A stretch of DNA of 64,000 nucleotides, taken from assembly GCA_014925825.1 (NCBI GenBank), contig JACGCK010000015.1, forward strand, positions 434,001 to 498,000. The letters run 5' to 3'. Source of the DNA: Pholiota molesta (Eukaryota > Basidiomycota > Agaricomycetes > Agaricales > Strophariaceae). The position numbers and the translations under genes are program-made. Positions 28,808 to 61,407 of this stretch are shown here, in pieces. Position 1 is the first letter of the stretch. Each line of letters begins with the position of its first letter. A model generated the notes under the pieces. It ran no database searches. It had not been told where the DNA came from and saw only the letters and a program-made list of their open reading frames with translations.

Positions 28808-29072
28808 TGTAAGGATGGCCGTCACCTGACCTTACACCAGTAGATACATACGACGCGTCCGATCCATTTAGTATCTTACCTCTTCCTTTCCGATATACAC
28901 CTACCCTTACCATACCACACACACATCTCATCCCCTCCTCTTCTCATAGACACCGCTCTTACCCAAACTCAATAAATCCACAACTTGATCCTGTCTTTTT
29001 CGGTCCGATTCCGTAAGTCATCGAACCTCGCTTCATTTCAGTGTATTCCACTCCATACGGAGTGGTCTTTCA
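28808..29072 (+). repeat. 5' LTR
   Basis: 265 bp, TG...CA boundaries, identical to 35328-35592. It contains a pyrimidine-rich middle and an AATAAA-like box (CTCAATAAATCC). Confidence 0.93.
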
Positions 29073-29473
29073 CTTTTTTTTTGACATCAATCAACTTGTG
29101 ACGGATTTATTGCACTCGAGACACTCCTGTGCACATCAAAGACTCGCGTTAATCGCTTTCTCACAACGGCTTCACCGTTTACTTCTCCTTCTTCTACGGA
29201 ACTGTATAGTACTCCAGTCTCCCGCATCCTCCAGTTTTCTCCAGACACCAGCTCCAGCTCCAGCCCCAGCCTATAGCGTGTCTCAGTTTATCCCCAGGTA
29301 CTTGGGCTATCGTACTTCTTGGGGCGCATATATTCGCTATTTTTGGAATTAGCGCGCATATATTTTGGACTCGAGCTTATTTTTGATCCGTCCCTGATCT
29401 TCGCTGTGATCTCTTGTCCAGCGCTGATATTTCTCTCAATCCAGCTCCCGTTTTCGACTCCTACTGTTAAAAG

Positions 29474-30979
29474 ATGTCTAGTGGCTCACGCATCACCCCT
29501 GTTAGACCTCGTTTCACTAGGGCTTCCGCTAGGCAGAACAACTTGCCCGTTTTAGGTCCCTTAACGGGTGATAACGACCGTTCCGTTCTTAGGACGTCTC
29601 GATCTCCGGAACCTAAGGTCGAAAGCCCAGTCTCTAACCATTCGTCCCCTTCTTCGGGTGACTCGGACCCTTCGGATTTTTCTTTCACAAAAGATATCGA
29701 AGATTTATCCTCAAACCCTTCTTCAGCCGATTCCAGTTCTTCTTCTTTATCCTCTCTCCCAGATCTCATCCCTATCGAGGATTCTAGTGATTCTTCCGTG
29801 ACCGAAGCAAACCCATCTTCCGTCGGTCCCTTAAACGACGGCCCTCCGGATCCTTCTGACGATTCTTCAAGTTCTTCTGACCCATCCGAGCCTTCTCATC
29901 CCGAAGACAATTCGAGTTCGTCGGACGAATCTTCAGCCGGAAGCGAACCCTCAGTTGTAGAAACGAATTACTCTGACAATATCGCCATTCACCCCACTGG
30001 CTCTGACTCTTCTTCTGATTCCGAAATCATGACTACCGCCAGCGCACCGTCTTTCATTGAAACTTCCCATAAATATCCTCCTTTGATCCTCGAGTGCGAG
30101 AATATCACCCCGGCTCTCTTACGCGACTGGGAGAAAGAAGCGCTTGTTCACTTCCATCGAAAGAAGATCGCCGAGGAGGAACGCGTCACCGAAATTTTTG
30201 GCTGTTTCCGCAAAAACGAGCTTTTAGAGGCTTGGCTCGAGCGCAACAGAGACGAATGGGAAGCGCTTATAGATTCTGAAGACGGTTTTTCTTTCCGCGA
30301 TTTCATGGCCGTAATGCGATCTTCGTTCCTCGAGAAAGATTGGGAAAGAAAAATCTTACAGAACGACGTTCACGCGCGCATGGAACCCGATGAGAAGTTT
30401 TCCACCTTTTATAGGCGTATCACCATCGCAAACAACCAATTATCCCATTCCGAGTACTACGTGAAACCTACCGAGCTTCGTGATATCTTGACCCGCAATT
30501 TCTCCAAACGTTTGCGCGACGCTATCGACAGCCTGTCTGACTCTGAACGAGAGCGTATCGAAGACGAACCGGTCTTCGATAAATGGATTGCGAGGATTTT
30601 AAAGCTTGATATCACGAGCGCTAAAGCGCACGAAGCTCTAGCCTCCGCAGCCGAAAAGATGTTTCGAGAGAATTACGCTGGGTTCAACAGAAATGACTAC
30701 GACTCTATGAACAAGCGCCAGAGGACTGGGTACTACGCTCCCACCGCTGCTATGGCTTCAAACGTGGCAACGGGCGCTAACGCGTATCCAACTCATAACC
30801 CTCCTGTTGGTTTCATTGGGCCCAGGATTTTCCCTCCCAAACTCACGGAGGACGAGCGTTCGATCCTTCAGCGTCACCGTGGCTGCTACAAATGCCGACG
30901 TGTCAATGTCTTGTCTGACGATCATTCTGGCGCCAAATGCAATGACGACCCCCCTCTGGTATCAATTACAAGGTCATAA
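29474..30979 (+). CDS. gag: Gag of the gypsy element
   Basis: A 501-residue frame. Residues 1-190 are Ser/Asp/Pro-rich low complexity. A Gag-type helical region follows (from about LRDWEKEALVHFHRKKIAE through DKWIARILKL). Near the C-terminus is a zinc-knuckle-like segment, CYKCRR...DDHSGAKC, with C-x2-C-x9-H-x4-C spacing instead of the usual CCHC. The frame stops at 30979, just after a run of six Cs (30949-30954) where the Pol frame (-1 relative) opens. Confidence 0.88.
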   Translation: MSSGSRITPVRPRFTRASARQNNLPVLGPLTGDNDRSVLRTSRSPEPKVESPVSNHSSPSSGDSDPSDFSFTKDIEDLSSNPSSADSSSSSLSSLPDLIPIEDSSDSSVTEANPSSVGPLNDGPPDPSDDSSSSSDPSEPSHPEDNSSSSDESSAGSEPSVVETNYSDNIAIHPTGSDSSSDSEIMTTASAPSFIETSHKYPPLILECENITPALLRDWEKEALVHFHRKKIAEEERVTEIFGCFRKNELLEAWLERNRDEWEALIDSEDGFSFRDFMAVMRSSFLEKDWERKILQNDVHARMEPDEKFSTFYRRITIANNQLSHSEYYVKPTELRDILTRNFSKRLRDAIDSLSDSERERIEDEPVFDKWIARILKLDITSAKAHEALASAAEKMFRENYAGFNRNDYDSMNKRQRTGYYAPTAAMASNVATGANAYPTHNPPVGFIGPRIFPPKLTEDERSILQRHRGCYKCRRVNVLSDDHSGAKCNDDPPLVSITRS

Positions 30980-31068
30980 CCGACGACTGGGCGCGTAGCT
31001 TCAACGGTAAACCTTCTCCTGTCAATCCAAAAATCGTCCCTGCTCAGGCATCTTTCAACCCTGCTCCT

Positions 31069-34000
31069 ATGGGTCCCTCCGTCGCCCCTGTCGCCGCCAC
31101 CGCGAGCTACTACCATAACCGTCCATCGCAATACACTCGTCACGAAAATCCCCCACCGGCTCCCCGCGTCGATAACAAACGAGAGCGTCTCGAGCACAAT
31201 TACCCTTACAAACATGAAGTCCCTCTGAATTATAGGGCTCAGTCTGCGCCGGTCACTAACGGTAGATTCTTACGCCAGAACGCTTCAGCTGGACCGTCGA
31301 ACTTGCGCAGGGCCCGTTCTCCGCGTACTCCTTCTCCATCGCCTGAGCAGCGCTCCCAACGTGGCTCACCGATTGGTTTAGTAACACAGCGAGGGATCTC
31401 CCCTTCTTCCTCGAGTGAAAAGAGACGTTCTGACGATGATGGCTACGCTTCAGATGATGTGAGTAATCACGCTTGTCTTGAACGCACAAGTCCTATAACA
31501 GTCGAGCACCTTTGGTGGACTGCTACCTGTGATTCTCCCGTGAACGATTTTTCTGTCCCTGTCAGAACGTTACTCGACGACGGTGCTCACCTAGTTTTAA
31601 TTAGGCCTGAACTCGTTTTGAAATTAGCGCTACCTATTCACAAGCTCAAGAAACCCATTGGCGCTACCTTGGCCTGGTCTGATACCCCATTCTCTTTTGT
31701 CGATTTCGTTGTCATTACTCTTAATTCCGTTAACAACGCCTGGTCGTCTAAGCCTACAATTGCCTTGATTTGTAATAACTTGTGTGCAGAAATTTTACTC
31801 GGGTTACCTTTCCTCCAGCATAATGGTATCGTTATTGATCATGAGCTTCGAACGGTCATTGATAAAAAATGTGGCTACGATTTACTGAACCCGGGGAAGA
31901 TTTCTCCCCCTCCTGTTTTATTAACTCCTAAAGAGCGCCGGTCAGAATATAAAGAAAATAGGAAAAGGTTTAAAGCTGAATTGAAGTGGCGTCTAGCAAT
32001 TCGACGCCGTGAATTATCCGAGAATACCGATTACAAAGAAAGCAAACCAGCTAATCCCATAGCAGCTATCACGAATAGAGTAGAAGAATTAGCCTCTTTA
32101 CTCGAACTCCAGAAATACGAAGAACAAATTAAAGCTGATTTCGCACCTATCTTCGAACCTATCCCTCACAGCTCTGAATTACCGGATGATGAAGTAGCCC
32201 GGATTGTTCTGATCGACCCTAAGAGACAAGTAAAAACTCGAACGTACCCATGTCCTCGACAATATCAAGACTCTTTCCAAGCTCTTATCAAACAGCGTTT
32301 AGACTCTGGCTTTATTCGGCTCTCTTCCAGTTCCCACTGTTCACCGTCCTTTATTACCCCAAAAGCCGATCCAAAGGCAATGCCCCGTTGGGTTTGCGAT
32401 TATCGTCAACTCAACGACAATACTGTACCTGATAACTTCCCTATACCGGATGTAGATAATGTTTTACGCAGCTGCGCAAAGGGGAAAATCTGGGCGCAGA
32501 TCGACATGACTGATAGTTTCTTCCAAACCCGGATGCACCCAGATAGTATTAAATATACAGCGGTTACTACACCCTTTGGCGCCTACGAATGGCTCGTGAT
32601 GCCCATGGGTTTCCGCAATTCGCCTTCTATCCACCAGAGACGAGTTACACGAGCTTTGCAACACCTCATTGGAAAAATTTGCTACATCTATTTAGATGAT
32701 ATTGTAATCTGGTCCGACTCCCTAGAAGAGCATATTCAGAATGTTAAAACGGTTCTACAAGCTCTGATTGACGCCCGTTTATATGTAAACAAGAAAAAGA
32801 CTCACTTGTTTAAATACGAGATTAATTTCTTGGGTCACAAAGTCTCCCAATCTGGTATCGAGGCTGATTCTAAGAAAGTGGATAAGATATTAGATTGGCC
32901 TACGCCTGAATCCACGAAGGATGTTCGCAAATTTTTGGGCCTCGTGCGCTATTTAAACGCTTTCTTGCCACGTTTAGCAATACAGTCAGAAATATTGAGT
33001 GAATTGACTTTTAGAAAATACGACAAATGTTTTCCAGCTTGGACACCGAAACACGAAATGGCTTTTCAAAATATTAAAGAAATTGTCACCTCCAGAGAAT
33101 GTCTTACAGTAATTGATCACTACGATCCCTCCAAGAAGATTTTTGTTACCACGGACGCTTCAGATACTTGCTCTGGCGCCGTGCTTTCCTTCGGAGAGAC
33201 CTGGTCTGGCTCTCGACCTGTCGCCTTCGACTCTATGACTTTCAAGGGTGCTGAGCTTAATTATCCTGTTCATGAGAAAGAATTACTAGCGATTTTGCGA
33301 GCAATTCGGCGCTGGAAAGTTGACCTCTTGGGTTCAGAATTTTTGGTTTACACAGACCATAAGACTCTGCTAAATTTCGACACTCAGAAAGAATTATCGC
33401 GACGACAAGCGCGCTGGATGGAGGAGCTCTCAATTTACAACTGCAAATTTGTCTACGTCAAAGGGGATGATAACACTGTGGCCGATGCCTTGTCTCGTTT
33501 CCCGCATGCCAAACTAGCCTCTCTCGACATAGCAGAAGCGTCGGCTTCGCATCCATACCACTTTTGCCCGGAGGAAGAAGTCGTCATAGCCTCCATAATG
33601 CCTTGTAGCGGAGTTTTCGCATGCGTAAACGCGCTCTCAGACAAGGAAATTGTCCGTTTAAGCTCGAGCGTAACACTGGACCCAAAATTAGTCTCAGAAA
33701 TTACAGCATGTTACCAAAGTGATCCTTGGTGCCAAAAGCTACTCTCAGCAAGCAAAGGAATAACAAATCTTAATATCAGGAACGGTTTATGGTTTTTGTC
33801 TGACCGTTTGATTGTCCCTGCAGGTTGTAGTCTGCGTTCCTTAGTTTTCCAAATTGCCCATGATACATTAGGTCATTTCGGCTTTGCAAAGACTTATAAC
33901 GCTATCAGAGATTCTTATTTTTGGCCTAACATGAGAACTGATCTTGAGAACTCTTACATTCCTAGTTGTGTAGACTGTCAGCGAAACAAGTCCTCTACAA

Positions 34001-35157
34001 CCAAGCCTTCCGGGCCTTTACACCCGTTGCCGGTTCCTGATAGTAGATGTCAGTCGGTGGCACTCGATTTCATTGGGCCTTTACCCGAAGACGACGGTTT
34101 CAATATGATCTTGACTATTACCGATAGATTGGGTTCCGATGTCCGCATCGTACCTGTCCGCTCCGACATGACAGCTCCACAATTAGCGATTGTTTTTTTT
34201 GATGAATGGTATTGCGAGAACGGGTTGCCTGCTACTCTAGTATCTGACAGAGACAAGCTGTTTGTTTCTAACTTCTGGAGTGAATTGTGCAAAATTACGG
34301 GAATTGACATTGCTATGTCCTCCGCGTTCCATCCTGAATCTGATGGTGCTAGTGAACGCACGAATAAGACCGTTAATCAGTGCCTGCGATTCCATGTTGA
34401 ACGTAATCAAACCGGCTGGAAGCGTGCTCTCAAGCGTATCCGGTTTCAAATAATGTCTACAGTGAACGCAAGTACGGGCTATTCTCCTTTCCAATTACGT
34501 TTTGGACAACAGCCTCGCGTTTTACCTCCGTTATTCCCCCTCGATACTGAGGCGGCAACTTATAAGACAACTGCTAAAGACATTATTGAACAAGTCGCTT
34601 TAGATGTATCCGCTGCAAAGGATAATTTAATGGTTGCCAAAATAACTCAAGCTTTCCACTCGAACAAGCACCGTTCTGATGCACCTGTCTATGCGCCTGG
34701 TGATAAGGTTATGCTCAGCACGCTTAATAGGCGCCGAGATTACAGGCGCGCGGAAGAGAACAGGGTGGCTAAATTTATGCCTCGGTTCGACGGCCCGTAC
34801 ATGGTCATTAGCGCGCACACGGATGCTTCTACTGTTACTCTTGAGATCCCGAACGCCCCGAATATTTTCCCTACCTTCCATACTTCGCTCGTTAAACCTT
34901 TCCAGCAAAATGACTCTGATAAATTCCCACAACGCACATTGGAAGCTCCGGGTCCTGTTTCAGTGGATGGTTTCGACGAATATTACGTGGAAAAATTCGT
35001 AGACCATAAGAAAATCGGTTCTAAAGTTCATTACTTAGTACGATGGGTTGGTGAAGGGCCCGAAGAAGACCGCTGGATCGCCGGTGAATATCTGGACAAA
35101 AATGAGGCATTAGACAAGTACTGGGCCGACCGACCTGGGGGCAATCCTTTCTTGTAA
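31069..35157 (+). CDS. pol: Pol of the gypsy element (PR-RT-RH-IN-chromodomain)
   Basis: A 1362-residue frame, open upstream to 30946. The aspartic protease has LDDGAHLVL near 31570. Reverse transcriptase carries the catalytic YLDD at 32690-32701. RNase H has TTDASD near 33150 and the YTDHKTL segment near 33350. Integrase has an HHCC zinc domain (HDTLGHFG...C-x2-C near 33970) and the D,D35E core (LDFIGPL, LVSDRDK, GASERT). A C-terminal chromodomain (VEKFVDHKK...HYLVRWVG...RWIAGEYL, about 34984-35130) would direct integration to histone-marked chromatin. All catalytic residues I checked are present, so the element may still be autonomous if the Gag-Pol joint works. Confidence 0.95.
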   Translation: MGPSVAPVAATASYYHNRPSQYTRHENPPPAPRVDNKRERLEHNYPYKHEVPLNYRAQSAPVTNGRFLRQNASAGPSNLRRARSPRTPSPSPEQRSQRGSPIGLVTQRGISPSSSSEKRRSDDDGYASDDVSNHACLERTSPITVEHLWWTATCDSPVNDFSVPVRTLLDDGAHLVLIRPELVLKLALPIHKLKKPIGATLAWSDTPFSFVDFVVITLNSVNNAWSSKPTIALICNNLCAEILLGLPFLQHNGIVIDHELRTVIDKKCGYDLLNPGKISPPPVLLTPKERRSEYKENRKRFKAELKWRLAIRRRELSENTDYKESKPANPIAAITNRVEELASLLELQKYEEQIKADFAPIFEPIPHSSELPDDEVARIVLIDPKRQVKTRTYPCPRQYQDSFQALIKQRLDSGFIRLSSSSHCSPSFITPKADPKAMPRWVCDYRQLNDNTVPDNFPIPDVDNVLRSCAKGKIWAQIDMTDSFFQTRMHPDSIKYTAVTTPFGAYEWLVMPMGFRNSPSIHQRRVTRALQHLIGKICYIYLDDIVIWSDSLEEHIQNVKTVLQALIDARLYVNKKKTHLFKYEINFLGHKVSQSGIEADSKKVDKILDWPTPESTKDVRKFLGLVRYLNAFLPRLAIQSEILSELTFRKYDKCFPAWTPKHEMAFQNIKEIVTSRECLTVIDHYDPSKKIFVTTDASDTCSGAVLSFGETWSGSRPVAFDSMTFKGAELNYPVHEKELLAILRAIRRWKVDLLGSEFLVYTDHKTLLNFDTQKELSRRQARWMEELSIYNCKFVYVKGDDNTVADALSRFPHAKLASLDIAEASASHPYHFCPEEEVVIASIMPCSGVFACVNALSDKEIVRLSSSVTLDPKLVSEITACYQSDPWCQKLLSASKGITNLNIRNGLWFLSDRLIVPAGCSLRSLVFQIAHDTLGHFGFAKTYNAIRDSYFWPNMRTDLENSYIPSCVDCQRNKSSTTKPSGPLHPLPVPDSRCQSVALDFIGPLPEDDGFNMILTITDRLGSDVRIVPVRSDMTAPQLAIVFFDEWYCENGLPATLVSDRDKLFVSNFWSELCKITGIDIAMSSAFHPESDGASERTNKTVNQCLRFHVERNQTGWKRALKRIRFQIMSTVNASTGYSPFQLRFGQQPRVLPPLFPLDTEAATYKTTAKDIIEQVALDVSAAKDNLMVAKITQAFHSNKHRSDAPVYAPGDKVMLSTLNRRRDYRRAEENRVAKFMPRFDGPYMVISAHTDASTVTLEIPNAPNIFPTFHTSLVKPFQQNDSDKFPQRTLEAPGPVSVDGFDEYYVEKFVDHKKIGSKVHYLVRWVGEGPEEDRWIAGEYLDKNEALDKYWADRPGGNPFL

Positions 35158-35313
35158 TGTACTTTTTTTCTTCTCATATTTTGCCTGCGGTAGCTTTTCC
35201 CTACGGGGTTTTTAACGCACCCGTGAAAGGATTTTTTTTCTATTTTCTCATTTATCTTTGTATTCCATTGCTTTATTTTTTATTTTTTTTCTTCTATCTG
35301 CTCTCGATTTTAC

Positions 35314-35327
35314 TTTGGGGGGAGCAG
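35314..35327 (+). promoter_or_regulatory. Polypurine tract
   Basis: A G-rich purine run directly against the 3' LTR, as expected for plus-strand priming during reverse transcription. Confidence 0.6.
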
Positions 35328-35592
35328 TGTAAGGATGGCCGTCACCTGACCTTACACCAGTAGATACATACGACGCGTCCGATCCATTTAGTATCTTACC
35401 TCTTCCTTTCCGATATACACCTACCCTTACCATACCACACACACATCTCATCCCCTCCTCTTCTCATAGACACCGCTCTTACCCAAACTCAATAAATCCA
35501 CAACTTGATCCTGTCTTTTTCGGTCCGATTCCGTAAGTCATCGAACCTCGCTTCATTTCAGTGTATTCCACTCCATACGGAGTGGTCTTTCA
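35328..35592 (+). repeat. 3' LTR
   Basis: 265 bp, appears identical to the 5' LTR, followed by the second copy of the CGCTC target duplication. Confidence 0.93.
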
Positions 35593-41745: not shown

Positions 41746-42705
41746 TCAATAACCAAGCTCTTCCTCTTTGGCCAACTCGAGCTTCGCCTCAATCTCGGCT
41801 GGGTTTTGAGACTTCCTCTCCTTCAGGTATGTTTTGAGTATACAGCTGTCGCGTGAGCCAGATTTTTTACAACCCTTGCATACGCGCCCGTGCTGAATCA
41901 TCAGTAAATGAAGGCCGTACTTAAGTTCGTTGGGTACCCGTAGATCCAGATGCGCCTGCGTAAGAATTCGATCCGCTTTCGCGGGCACCCATCCAAGAAC
42001 CTTGCTGAGGCGAAAAATATGGGTATCGACTGCGAATGAATCGCGGCCGAGACAGAATAACAGCACGCAAGACGCAGTCTTAGGACCGACGCCATCGTAA
42101 GCTATGAGCTCCTTCATAATTTCCGCATCGTCCATTCGTTTATCGCCCTCGGCGGCGAGGTGCTGCAGTGAGTAATCGCCATGACGGTGCTTTATCGACT
42201 GCAGGATTTTCTGTATCGTGGCTGCTTTCTTATTCGCCAGTCCCCCAGAGCGAATGGCATCAACGACGTCAGCCTGAGGCGCAGAGACAATGGCAGCAAA
42301 ATTATTCCGCCCGAATGTCTCATCTAATGCCTTCTTCGCTCTGGTTGAATTCTGCGCAGATGTGTTCTGTGAAAGAATTGTACCAATGAGCGCCTCGATG
42401 ACATTCGGCGCATTCTCGCACGTCTGCGAAGTATTGCTTGGCGCTAGAGATGGCTTTCGGAGGGGAGGCCGATTACTCCGGTGTGCGTTGGAAAGTAAAT
42501 CAAACACCTCCAGCGCTTCGGCGGGCGTCGGATGCTCGAATTCAGGGAAAGGTAACTCGAGTGCGAAGGATGAGTGGAGTTTCAGTTTCTTGGTTCTGGT
42601 CGATGCCTCTGAGGCGGAAACAACCTGACTCGAGGTCGAGCTTAAGGCAGCGGCGCGTTCAGGAATGCCAGATATCGAAGTCGAACGTGGCCGTTTGGTT
42701 CTCAT
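41746..42705 (-). CDS. Endonuclease III-like DNA glycosylase (HhH-GPD)
   Basis: Base-excision repair glycosylase fold, intronless, 319 residues, frame intact. Residues 1-95 are a polar, Ser/Lys-rich, presumably nuclear N-terminus. The glycosylase domain begins near 100 with NVIEALIGTILSQNTS (the LSQ-T helix of the Nth family). The helix-hairpin-helix is YDGVGPKTA, with the catalytic-type Lys at 209, and the conserved Asp is D227 in VDTHIFRL. After LMIQHGRVC come Cys 276, 279 and 288. The spacing C-x2-C-x8-C does not match the C-x6-C-x2-C-x5-C iron-sulphur loop of Nth, so the cluster may be absent or altered. The substrate range is uncertain. Confidence 0.88.
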   Translation of the reverse strand: MRTKRPRSTSISGIPERAAALSSTSSQVVSASEASTRTKKLKLHSSFALELPFPEFEHPTPAEALEVFDLLSNAHRSNRPPLRKPSLAPSNTSQTCENAPNVIEALIGTILSQNTSAQNSTRAKKALDETFGRNNFAAIVSAPQADVVDAIRSGGLANKKAATIQKILQSIKHRHGDYSLQHLAAEGDKRMDDAEIMKELIAYDGVGPKTASCVLLFCLGRDSFAVDTHIFRLSKVLGWVPAKADRILTQAHLDLRVPNELKYGLHLLMIQHGRVCKGCKKSGSRDSCILKTYLKERKSQNPAEIEAKLELAKEEELGY

Positions 42706-47363: not shown

Positions 47364-49042
47364 ATGCCCGCCCTACGCACCCGCGATAACCAATCCCGAA
47401 GTAAGTCCTTCCTCCCCACGAGACAATGAAAAAGATTCTGAGCGCGGAACCACTCACCCTTACAGCACTCGAAGTGACGACGGATGCCCCGCAGACCCCC
47501 ACCCTCCACATCGTATCGCCGACGCCACGCGCCTTCACCTTCCCTATAACCCACAACCTCGCCGACAGTCCTTACTCTTCTCCTTGTAGTTCTCCTTTTG
47601 AAGCCGACCTTCGTTCTCTCCCTTCGCAATGTACAACAGCAGCAATCAGTTCATCATCATCATCATTCACGCCCCCTCCACTTACGCGCACGCTCTCCCC
47701 GGAAACCCCCATATCACCCCAATCCGCCAACACCAAGCGCAGAAAATCAACGAGCAGTAGTGACGTCGTCGAACGCCGGCCGAAGAAAGGCGACGAGGAC
47801 TACATCAAACGCCCAGAGAACGCGTTCATCCTGTTCCGCCGCAAATGCTGCGAGGACCGCCAGCAACTGCAGGAGGAGAGCGCCACCGCACCTGAAGGGC
47901 CTGCCAAGAAGCAACGGCAGGCTGATCTCTCCAAGACCATAAGCCAGCAGTGGAAGAGCCTGTCGGCGCACGAGCGCCAGATGTGGGAGGACCTGGCCAA
48001 GTCCAAGAAGAAGGAACACGAGCAGCTGTACCCCAACTACGTGTATCGCCCCCAGCGCGCGAAGGACAAGGATGGCAGGACGAAGAGCAATAAGAAGATG
48101 CTGAAGAGGGTCGAGTTCGATGAGTCAGATTCGGTCTCGTTCATCGTGCCAGTCGCGCGTCCGCAGAATCGCTCCGCTTCAGCGCCCACGCCGCCGCCCT
48201 ACCAGTCGATCCAGATCCCTAACGTGTACCACATGACCCCGTCGTGCCCTACGTCGCCGTCGCTGCTGCCCATGATCAGTCGGCGAGCCGCGGCCCCAGG
48301 GTACCAAGACGAAGGGGTCTCCGGTTTCGACTACCTGCCGAATCCGTCGTATGTGGCGCCCTCGTTCGCGATGCAAGGACAGTTTGAAGCTAGCCTTCAG
48401 GTGCGTATTCTTATCCCCAGCGCCTCTCGTGCTCTTGATCCGTTGGAGACTGACGTGATCGCGTCTGTTCTAAAGTCGTCCGAGTTCCTACGAAGTATGT
48501 TCAACACCCCGAGCCAAAGGAACAACTCAACACCGCTTCAACAGCTCACCATGTCAATGCATCCCAATATGAACTCCTCCACCGACGCGCTCCTGCTCCC
48601 AGCACACCAGATCGTGTCCCCAGGCTCGTCCGGGCCTCCATCACCCTCCTCGGGCCCGTATACGCCCACCTCCATGTTCCTGCCGCAGAACACGTACACG
48701 CTCCCAGTCGACAACTCGCTCGAGGCGCAAGCCCAGGCGGAGATGGAGCTGCACGCGAACATGCAGATGCAGCAGGAGTTCGCGGCGTTCACCTGGGACA
48801 GCGCCTCGCTCTGGTCCTCCGAGCCGGCCGTGCTACTGACGGACGACTTCGACATCAACGCGATCCCGCCGCTCGAATTGGGCATCCCAAAATACACGGA
48901 GAACGTCGCCGTCGCGCACAACCAGTCCGGGCTCGAGTTCGGCCAGGAGTTCATGAGCGCGCTGGAGTGCCGCCAGTACAGCGACGACGGCCACAACATG
49001 GGCCTCATCGGGTTCGACGAGATGATGGCGGGCGGCTTCTGA
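47364..49042 (+). CDS. HMG-box transcription factor
   Basis: Sequence-specific HMG (MATA_HMG-type) DNA-binding protein, nuclear. Exon 1 (47364-47400, MPALRTRDNQSR) joins across a 65-nt GTAAGT...ACAG intron to exon 2 (47466-49042), giving 537 residues. The start is supported by the pyrimidine-rich leader and the in-frame splice. The HMG box spans about residues 125-208: KRPENAFILFRRK, then LSKTISQQWKSLSAHERQMWE and KEHEQLYPNYVYRPQR. An Ala/Glu-rich insert (about 149-162) lengthens the first loop. The rest is Ser/Pro/Thr-rich. Bases 48401-48475 have GTGCGT...AAAG ends and a CTGAC branch site. As 75 nt, they could be retained or removed without changing frame. In mushrooms such factors control sexual development, and the specific role here is unknown. 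Confidence 0.87.
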
Positions 49043-56937: not shown

Positions 56938-59191
56938 ATGCGCTCGTTCTTGAATATCTTTAGCTTTTATCTCGTTGCAGTGACCTATGGCGCTGTAGGA
57001 CCCACCGCCAATTTGTATATTCAAAACCAATTCATTCAGCCAGATGGCTTCAACCGCTCGTACGTAGTCCATTATGATAGTTCAAGTTCTTTCAACTGTT
57101 GTACTCACCCATCAAGTCCAGAACTGTCCTTGCTGGAGGGGTTGAGAACGCTCCGACATTCCCGGGACCTCTCATTACCGGGAATAAGGTACGAGAGCTT
57201 CGACCAATTCATGGTGACTACACACACTCAAAGGCCTTGAATTTAGGGAGATACCTTCAATCTCAACGTTGTGAACGAATTGACCGACAGTTCCATGTTG
57301 TTGAGTACCAGTATTGTGAGCAATTGTCTTCAAATGTAGAATCTTTTCTAATTTTATTACTTCTTCAATACAGCATTGGCATGGATTTTTCCAAAGCGGA
57401 ACCGCCTGGGCCGATGGTCCTGTTGGAGTGAATCAATGCCCTATTGCTCCTGGTCATTCTTTCCTGTATCAATTTACAGGTCTGGATCAAGCAGGAACGT
57501 ATTGGTATCATTCGCATTATTGTATGTTTTGATCTATTTCTTCTGATGTCCCACATTGACGAAAGGCTGTTCGTAGCTACCCAATATTGTGATGGATTGA
57601 GAGGCGCATTCGTCGTCTACGATCCAGACGATCCCTACAAGTCACAGTAAGCATTTGCGACATTTTTTTGAGTATCAAGCTGACAATTGGTTGCTTCCAG
57701 ATATGATGTCGATGACGGTACGCTTTGATGAAATTTATTTATCCTTCACACTACTAATCATTTTTCCTAATAGAATCTACTGTCATCACGCTAGCGGATT
57801 GGTGAGTATGAGTTTGCGGAATATCGTAGTATCAGTAATACTCATCGGATTACTCATCATAGGTATCACTCCGTCGCTCCAGTTCTGAGCGCCTCAGGTG
57901 CTCCTCCTCAATCACAGGCAACACTTATTAATGGTTTAGGACGCTATTCAGCTGATCCTACTGCCGCCCTTGCGGTCATTACCGTCAACCCGAATACTCG
58001 CTATCGTTTCCGCCTTGTCTCTATCTCCTGTGATCCCAACTACACGTTCTCTATCGATGGGCATCTCATGGTTAGTATTCAATTATCGACTATCCTGAGT
58101 CTCGATTCTGACGCTATATATAAAAGACAATCATTGAGGTTGACGGCAACAACGTCGCACCTCTCACTGTCGATTCGATTCAAATCTTTGCTGGCCAGCG
58201 TTATTCGTTCATCCTCCAAGCCAATCAACCAGTATCCAATTACTGGGTCCGTGCTCTTCCCAACTTCGGCGGTCCCAGTGGATTTACGGACGGTGTGAAC
58301 TCCGCGATTCTGCGATATACCGGCACAGCTGTTGCAGACCCAACTACTCCTCAGGTAACAAGCACTCAACCAATGAATGAATGGGAGCTGCAGACTCTCG
58401 AGAATCCAGCCGCTCCTGGTGCCCCAGGATCTGATGGTGTCGACGTTCCTCTTTGGTTTAATATCACTTTGACTGGTGGTTCCTTCGCGGTCAACGGTGC
58501 GATATTCCAGCCTCCTTCCGTTCCGGTCTTGCTACAGATCTTCAGTGGCGCGCGTACTGTGCAAGAGCTGCTTCCGTCGGGGTCGGTATACACCCTTCCC
58601 CCCAACGCGGTTGTTGAGATCACCATCCCTGGTGGAGCGATTGCTGCCCCTGTAAGCTCAATTGTTGTATATTATTTAGAATCTTTTCTGACCACATCAT
58701 TGCATAGCATCCCATCCATCTTCATGGGGTACGCTAAATCAAGTATTCAGAATTGTAAAAGCATCTAACAGATTATTTTCTTAGCACGCTTTCTCAGTCG
58801 TACGATCGGCGGGTAATTCTTCGTACAACTATGTCAATCCTGTTCGCAGGGATGTCGTGAACTCAGGTCTTGCTGGTGATCTTGTCACGATTCGATTCCA
58901 AACCGATAACGCTGGACCTTGGATCATGCACTGTCATATTGATTGGCATCTCGACAAGTCAGTCTATTTTTGCAGCTATGGCAGGATTTACATTGACATA
59001 TTGTGTCATTATTAGGGGTCTCGCAATCGTTATGGCTGAAGATCCTGCCACACTTGCTACGGAAAGCCATCCCGGTAATGATAATTGTTAAGATGACAAG
59101 AGTGTCTAAGCTAACCTGGTTTACTTCCGCAGCTTCCTGGGATGACTTGTGTCCTATATTCAATGCTTTACCGGCGCAAACCTTCAATTAG
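56938..59191 (+). CDS. Laccase 2 (multicopper oxidase), intact
   Basis: Secreted laccase (benzenediol:oxygen oxidoreductase). Thirteen exons (56938-57059, 57122-57188, 57247-57315, 57374-57521, 57577-57646, 57701-57717, 57774-57801, 57863-58070, 58127-58651, 58708-58728, 58785-58957, 59016-59074, 59133-59191) sum to 1566 nt and join without a frame break into 521 residues. A signal peptide ([19 protein letters not shown]) precedes VGPTANL. Copper ligands lie in HWHGFFQ, WYHSHYS, HPIHLHGHAF (split by an intron) and HCHIDWHL. The residue ten after the Cys is Leu, a T1 class seen in many mushroom laccases. The enzyme ends [18 protein letters not shown]. Intron positions match laccase 1, showing common descent, though they are 38 kb apart. 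Possible roles are lignin, pigment or phenol oxidation. Confidence 0.95.
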
Positions 59192-60807: not shown

Positions 60808-61407
60808 CTATAGTGTGCGCTTCCAACCCTGACTGGGATAGCCATCGGCAACTTCTTCTCCGCGTCTCGAGCCCTCCGTAGGTGACCCCTCTGTGCGCTT
60901 CCAACCCTGACTGGGATAGCCATCTGCAACGTCTTCTCCGCGTCTCCAGCCCTCCGTAGGTGACCCCGAGGCGCTCTCTGCAGTCAAATCCGCCCTTCGT
61001 TTCCAATCGTTGGCAGGATAACCTTGCTCGCTATCCGTACCACGCTTGCGATCTTCGGGATATGAATCTCTTTTCCACGGCGGGGCGTCGGTTTCGGTGG
61101 ATTTGGGAGTACGACGCCAGTCGGAGGCAGAGGTATCCCTTTTCCAGGGAGGGGCGTCAGAGTGGGTGGACTCGGCAGAGCGCCGCCATTCTGTAGTGGG
61201 CGCATCTCTTTTCCAAGGTGGCGCTGGATCATCAGCTGGAGTTGCAACGCCTCTCTGAGCGATGTTGTGAAGGGCCTGCAAACGAGACGGGTACCCAGGT
61301 TAAGTTGACTGAAACGCTCCCAAAATATATGATAAACGTACCGGAGCCGCTTGGGTTGAAGTAAGGAACGTGAAAGAAATAATCGCGACGATAGTGGAGA
61401 AGCGCAT
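60808..61407 (-). CDS. Secreted repeat peptide precursor with Kex2-type sites
   Basis: Exon 1 (61407-61342) encodes exactly 22 residues forming a signal peptide (MRFSTIVAIISFTFLTSTQ, then Ala-Ala-Pro). A 66-nt GTACGT...GCAG intron follows. Exon 2 (61275-60808) brings the total to 177 residues. After a short leader the protein is cut by eleven dibasic KR or RR sites. Nine of the potential products would end in Trp before the site, in two themes: DAPPW-KR (three, alternating with short D-x5-W-RR pieces) and GYPxxxW-KR (three, alternating with GSPTEG segments). The last site is followed by only TL. This fits the fungal class of Kex2-processed repeat proteins, which yields pheromones, effectors and precursors of cyclic RiPPs. 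No UstYa-like or other maturation enzyme is seen nearby. The gene is convergent with laccase 2. Confidence 0.8.

Follow-up and report, generated by a model that had tools for sequence, protein, structure and literature searches.

Short linear peptides with a C-terminal tryptophan, derived from the KEX2-processed repeat proteins (KEPs) of agaricomycetes, have been detected by mass spectrometry (PMC9769878). In the available text of that study (Vogt et al. 2022), expression of a Coprinopsis cinerea KEP in Pichia gave QMRPPSW and QYKAPSW, as well as pyro-QYKAPS, a product without the final Trp. GPPAPSW, which stems from a non-repetitive C-terminus, was found in C. cinerea culture; shiitake yielded SGTGEASAADW and oyster mushrooms yielded SGVAADW. 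BLAST searches in the same work returned many further KEPs of basidiomycetes in which STE13 motifs accompany a C-terminal tryptophan. Six KEP genes were knocked out in C. cinerea with no resulting phenotype, and the function was reported as still unsolved (PMC9769878). Le Marquer et al. 2019 described an XSDW motif conserved in Basidiomycota KEPs and reported a-type pheromones only for basidiomycete mating (PMC6339444, in the text available). The survey of Umemura 2020, as far as its text was available, listed 7878 KEPs, found in 1345 out of 1461 strains, with 838 types and 2560 KEPs without homologues; its KEP type P-3 occurred in Fonsecaea, Cladophialophora, Galerina, Psilocybe and Coprinellus (PMC7329392).

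The gene described here is located in a stretch of 64,000 nucleotides of Pholiota molesta DNA (the window), which belongs to contig C57 (655 kb). It consists of two exons on the minus strand (61407–60808) and encodes 177 aa; we consider the gene model convincing. Exon 1 (61342–61407, minus strand) encodes 22 residues, MRFSTIVAIISFTFLTSTQAAP, with the hydrophobic core IVAIISFTFL (mean hydropathy of 2.74 over 10 residues). Judged from hydropathy alone, this exon is signal-peptide-like and was treated as a putative signal peptide. The predicted intron (61276–61341, 66 nt) has GT...AG borders (GTACGT...TTTGCAG) and contains an in-frame TAA. Exon 2 (60808–61275) encodes 155 residues and the stop codon, with 11 KR/RR sites when counted without overlap; one KRR adds a twelfth dibasic pair that overlaps its neighbour. 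The residue preceding the 11 sites was W in nine cases, R in one and S in one. Exactly nine W occur after residue 22, every one directly before a dibasic pair, and the whole protein has no other W. The preliminary description of this DNA had proposed a signal peptide alone on exon 1, a 66-nt intron, repeats with eleven KR/RR sites on exon 2 and nine predicted Trp-ended products, which agreed with our reading of the gene, in which the signal peptide is a putative one. No Pfam family matched the protein up to an E-value of 1.

Cuts at the dibasic sites would give, in order, an N-terminal piece ending in DPAPPW, then DAPTTEW, SAESTHSDAPPW, DTSASDW, TPKSTETDAPPW, DSYPEDR, GTDSEQGYPANDW, ADLTAESASGSPTEGW, GEDVADGYPSQGW, TEGSPTEGS, GEEVADGYPSQGW and TL; ADLTAESASGSPTEGW would gain one extra leading R if the cut followed KR alone. 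Two repeat themes were distinguished. Theme A (61042–61275, minus strand, 69-nt DNA repeat spacing) is confined to the N-terminal half, where three products ending in PAPPW or DAPPW stand among TTEW, SASDW and PEDR units. Theme B (60817–61041, minus strand, 78-nt spacing) is confined to the C-terminal half and comprises GYPANDW and two GYPSQGW endings among PTEGW and PTEGS units. The two themes had been described as alternating with shorter spacers; both themes are present and each is interleaved with other units, but they do not alternate with each other. Within theme B, a 78-nt unit is duplicated in tandem (60814–60967, minus strand), the aligned copies (60814–60889 and 60892–60967) being 96% identical. 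One of the duplicated units has PTEGS where its sister has PTEGW, with S replacing W.

A chance origin of the dibasic pattern was rejected with shuffled controls. In 20,000 shuffles of the part after residue 22, the maximum was four W-dibasic motifs and nine were never reached; with a slightly narrower motif, another 20,000 shuffles gave at most three. The probability that all nine W land on the eleven pre-site positions by chance was about 2e-12.

C. cinerea KEPs 490115 and 447393 are secreted precursors with KEX2 sites and Trp endings after Pro-containing stretches (PMC9769878, available text), as predicted for the window gene. Compared by the products described, the endings of the window gene differ (DAPPW, GYPANDW, GYPSQGW, PTEGW and others), and STE13 motifs are sparse in its precursor. 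By eye, the -AADW of Lentinula edodes KEP 2599 and Pleurotus KEPs 1091723/1439342 (PMC9769878, available text) resembles GYPANDW and SASDW of the window gene. The detected peptides described for each of these KEPs share one ending, whereas the window precursor combines -PPW with -DW/-GW. With respect to the XSDW motif (PMC6339444, available text), one window product ends in SASDW, the only such unit, and SDW also occurs in the proteins P0006 and P0007 discussed below. Ascomycete alpha-factor precursors, compared by description and not by sequence, resemble the window precursor in its putative signal peptide, the KEX2 sites and XA/XP in some units. The window gene is a further member of the known KEP class. 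The preliminary description had stated that no named fungal peptide with this pattern was known; Trp-ended peptides of agaricomycete KEPs (PMC9769878) and the XSDW motif of Basidiomycota (PMC6339444) are published. Its proposal of a Kex2-processed multi-peptide precursor is the best reading, with a repeat design beyond the controls, although as a pattern it was already described in agaricomycetes.

We consider it likely that the protein is a KEP that releases short linear Trp-ended peptides. As we infer them for the precursor products, secretion, cutting, trimming and function would proceed as follows. The precursor would enter the secretory pathway via its putative N-terminal signal peptide, a KEX2-type protease would cut after the KR/RR pairs, and a KEX1-type carboxypeptidase would trim the basic residues. 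About nine short, linear and likely flexible peptides, each with a free C-terminal Trp, would be freed. They would form two groups, one ending in -PPW and the other in -(N/S)DW, -(E/Q)GW or -TEW. A STE13-type dipeptidyl peptidase may shorten three of the peptides at the N-terminus; this trimming is weakly supported, because a clear XA/XP dipeptide follows only 3 of the 11 sites (DA, SA and TP), a fourth (RA) arising from the KRR overlap. By analogy, the peptides most likely serve as secreted signals that address either other hyphae or different organisms. Counted exon by exon, the genome gave five matches to the Kex2-type P-domain (PF01483), all above the cut-off, and seven to the STE13/DPPIV-type domain (PF00930).

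Receptor-type genes were also found in the genome. STE3-type matches were located on contigs C13, C17 and C593, with clusters at C17:44027–65639 and C593:459929–477950 that are perhaps two versions of a pheromone-receptor locus. The STE2-type family (PF02116) had no match in the genome, but the control genomes matched nothing either.

Instead of linear peptides, the Trp-ended units could be cores of ribosomal peptides (RiPPs) on which UstYa-like or other tailoring enzymes oxidise or cyclise Trp or Tyr, as the preliminary description had suggested for Trp. Dikaritin precursors are KEPs, the theme B cores contain Tyr (GYP), and the genome has 11 UstYa (PF11807/DUF3328) matches. According to the available text of Umemura 2020, DUF3328 was nearby in four of seven cases of the abundant KEP type P-3, which has W and P in its repeats, and for 17 of 76 KEPs with homology to putative pheromones of basidiomycetes (PMC7329392). 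The UstYa matches, however, were located on C33, C79, C94, C135 and C168, and none of the 11 was on C57 or the homologous contig C167. A cyclised RiPP was held unlikely because the contig has no UstYa match. UstYa was also absent from the 30 ORFs scanned with Pfam, of 48 listed between window position 41749 and the end of locus L021; the scan identified a multicopper oxidase, an HMG box, an HhH-GPD glycosylase and DUF6699 only. In addition, the agaricomycete KEP peptides detected so far are linear and minimally modified (PMC9769878, available text), and DUF3328 was nearby for only 103 of 1680 (6.1%) basidiomycete KEPs (PMC7329392, available text). The neighbourhood thus lent no support to a modified Trp, and we regard tailored cores as distinctly unlikely compared with linear KEP products.

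Two of the domains in the neighbourhood were found in pairs. Laccase-type multicopper oxidase matches flank the precursor gene about 23 kb apart (window 57795–58765 and L020 7308–8199), each place spanning two frames, and HMG-box frames were found at window 47405–49039 and L019 1875–3656, the second below the curated cut-off. The paired places are possibly a duplicated segment.

In the genome (65.6 Mb, 625 contigs), there was one other copy of the precursor gene, located on contig C167 and encoding a protein with 93% identity. Contig C167 (59 kb) is collinear, in inverted orientation, with the region from 20.5 kb in the window to 14.5 kb past its right end (78.5 kb). The identity between the two contigs was mostly 83–97% and fell to near 80% in two stretches. 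No counterpart was seen for about 10 kb of C167, of which the largest pieces, of 6.9 kb and 1.8 kb, flank the C167 gene copy. Because the contigs are collinear, we read the C167 copy as the allele on the other haplotype rather than as a paralogue. A recent duplication was also considered as the origin of the second copy and was held unlikely, C167 being collinear over most of its length. Elsewhere in the assembly, pairs of UstYa-type matches with similar spacing and on the same strands were observed at C33:50329–63236 and C79:442240–454923, which suggests that the assembly contains both haplotypes in places. A stretch of about 6.8 kb in the window (28808–35591) was absent from the collinear C167. 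Its open frame matched reverse transcriptase, RNase H, an integrase zinc-binding domain and, weakly, a chromo domain, and the stretch is probably a haplotype-specific retroelement insertion.

The two copies differed at 0 of 66 bases in exon 1 and at 6 of 66 bases in the intron, with the splice sites and the in-frame stop kept. In the coding sequences, 17 codons differed, 11 of them nonsynonymously, in addition to a 3-residue indel. The base differences comprised 12 nonsynonymous and 8 synonymous changes, and the whole-gene dN/dS was about 0.46. All nine W-dibasic sites were kept in the C167 copy, with the amino-acid changes elsewhere. At residue 29, the window gene has AQR and the C167 copy ARR, which gives one further, polymorphic dibasic site. 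When the core was defined as the five residues that precede a Trp-bearing cut plus its dibasic pair, which covers 63 of 155 positions, it contained none of the 11 changed residues (P=0.0025). For cores of the last three or the last seven residues, the corresponding values were 0 of 11 (P=0.02) and 1 of 11 (P=0.003). Of the six codons with synonymous changes only, 1, 1 and 2 lay within cores of three, five and seven residues. The test comprised 11 changes in one pair of copies, with the core defined after the protein was seen, and by this small test the precursor gene is under constraint.

These data also bear on the possibility of a gene copy in decay or without expression. The S in place of W in one duplicated unit is present in both copies, a retroelement lies about 25 kb from the gene, and the C167 copy is flanked by 1.8 and 6.9 kb that have no counterpart, all of which might be expected of decay. 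In contrast, the reading frame is uninterrupted in both copies, the splice sites are kept, the dN/dS is about 0.46 and the changes avoid the cores. We consider decay or loss of expression very improbable.

In a search against 5.8 billion proteins, the window protein had a single match up to an E-value of 10, namely P0002 (E 0.15). With P0002 as the query, P0003 was retrieved from the same Mycena (E 3.5e-3); P0002 and P0003 are the hypothetical proteins B0H10DRAFT_2196000 and B0H10DRAFT_748185 of Mycena sp. CBHHK59/15. P0002 reads ...QDAPPWRR...RDTPPWKR...QDAPPWKR, the last twice, and has SDM beside DTPPW, and P0003 has six repeats ending in DAPPWKR, DTPPWKR or ATPPWKR. Both are the nearest relatives found and are like the window gene in the repeated DAPPW or DTPPW before dibasic pairs; unlike the window gene, they are without the GYP...W theme, with four and six W-dibasic sites, respectively. 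When P0003 was searched against the whole 65.6-Mb genome, the window gene (E 2.2e-6) and its second copy (E 7.4e-6) ranked first. A degenerate DNA pattern for D(A/T)PPW followed by a dibasic pair had four matches in the whole genome, two in each copy, and none in the reversed control.

A profile built from four sequences (P0003, P0002 and the two gene copies) and scored against the best 7996 candidates by shared words identified P0004 (E 7e-5); P0005, P0006 and P0007 scored below significance (E 1.2, 3.9 and 5.4). Common descent is not established by score for these last three, nor for P0002 with its E-value of 0.15 against the window protein. P0007 originates from Rhizoctonia solani AG-8. P0004 to P0007 each combine repeated W-dibasic units with a hydrophobic stretch close to the N-terminus. 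The fraction of dibasic pairs preceded by W was 4/5 in P0002, 6/6 in P0003, 5/8 in P0004, 5/5 in P0005, 3/5 in P0006 and 3/6 in P0007, or 26/35 for the six relatives together, a value biased by retrieval with words such as PPWKR. In P0004, a Cys-bearing unit is repeated whose CYTNPPW end is followed by a dibasic pair; another Cys lies upstream, and from this arrangement its units could form disulphide-bearing Trp-ended peptides. Mixed endings were found in P0006 (SDW, HDW, PPW and a terminal PPGW) and in P0007 (PPW, PPGW and a terminal SDW).

Two alternatives to short peptides with a functional Trp can be weighed with these relatives. According to the first, the protein stays whole as a cell-wall or surface protein and the dibasic pairs are incidental. 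Repeat-rich secreted proteins can have structural roles, and cutting of the window protein is a prediction from its sites. The strict coupling of Trp to dibasic pairs speaks against an uncut protein, as does the persistence of the W-dibasic pattern in precursors that range in length from 106 to 177 aa, and cut products of similar precursors have been detected (PMC9769878, available text). An uncut protein is highly unlikely. According to the second, Trp serves at P3 in recognition by one KEX2 paralogue among several, and the product itself makes no use of it. Trp does precede the dibasic pair across otherwise differing cores, and three kex2 genes are reported in C. cinerea (PMC9769878, available text). 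However, at each of the nine sites Trp and the four residues preceding it were identical in the two copies, Mycena also has DAPPW, and P0006 (PPGW) and P0007 (SDW) end in W at the C-terminus with no dibasic pair after it. Other detected C. cinerea KEP products also lack Trp (PMC9769878, available text). A Trp that serves recognition only is unlikely, and release of Trp-ended KEP peptides is the reading we retain.

Searches for further precursors in the genome gave few candidates besides the two copies. The other two matches of P0003 had E-values of 0.03 (C277) and 0.31; in the C277 match (locus L025), none of the frames contained two W[KR]R sites. The fourth match, locus L026 on C593, has internal stops. 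At L026 1149–1930 (plus strand), a repeated SPESPWRR was observed in an Arg-rich repeat region with two overlapping frames, more likely an off-frame reading of the repeat than a second precursor. A genome pattern of two WKR sites 19–49 bases apart had 70 matches, against 54 in the reversed control, and is unable to catch the window gene, in which adjacent WKR sites are more widely spaced. Frames were inspected for at least three W[KR]R sites at 72 loci, including 30 of the 70 two-WKR matches. Besides the two copies, such frames were the two SPESPWRR frames of L026, Arg/Trp-rich frames in L044 and L045, a PWRR/SWRR run inside a long frame in L066 and three scattered sites in L019. With P0006 as the query, no matches were found in the genome, the window gene included, and P0007 had two matches (E 1.1 and 4.7), neither of which was the window gene; these two queries therefore say little about other precursors in the genome.

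Both -PPW and -DW/-GW-type endings occur within one precursor in the window gene, in P0006 and in the Rhizoctonia protein P0007. In the open-access main texts searched, neither the DAPPW core nor precursors mixing -PPW with -DW/-GW were found, which is weak evidence of absence; three papers containing the letters DAPPW were, judged by their titles, on unrelated subjects. We put forward only tentatively, as a rather unlikely reading, that one gene emits two Trp-ended families (-PPW and -DW/-GW) in fixed proportion and that such genes form an agaricomycete class. By analogy with described KEPs, a role of the peptides as secreted signals or in biotic interactions is likely. The DAPPW core shared with Mycena and the mixed endings provide defined peptides for synthesis and testing, and the occurrence of these endings side by side in a single precursor suggests a common group for -PPW and -DW peptides. 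If the reading of two emitted families is true, these genes would be two-ligand precursors, with peptide families that may be sensed by two separate receptors or jointly as a single signal.
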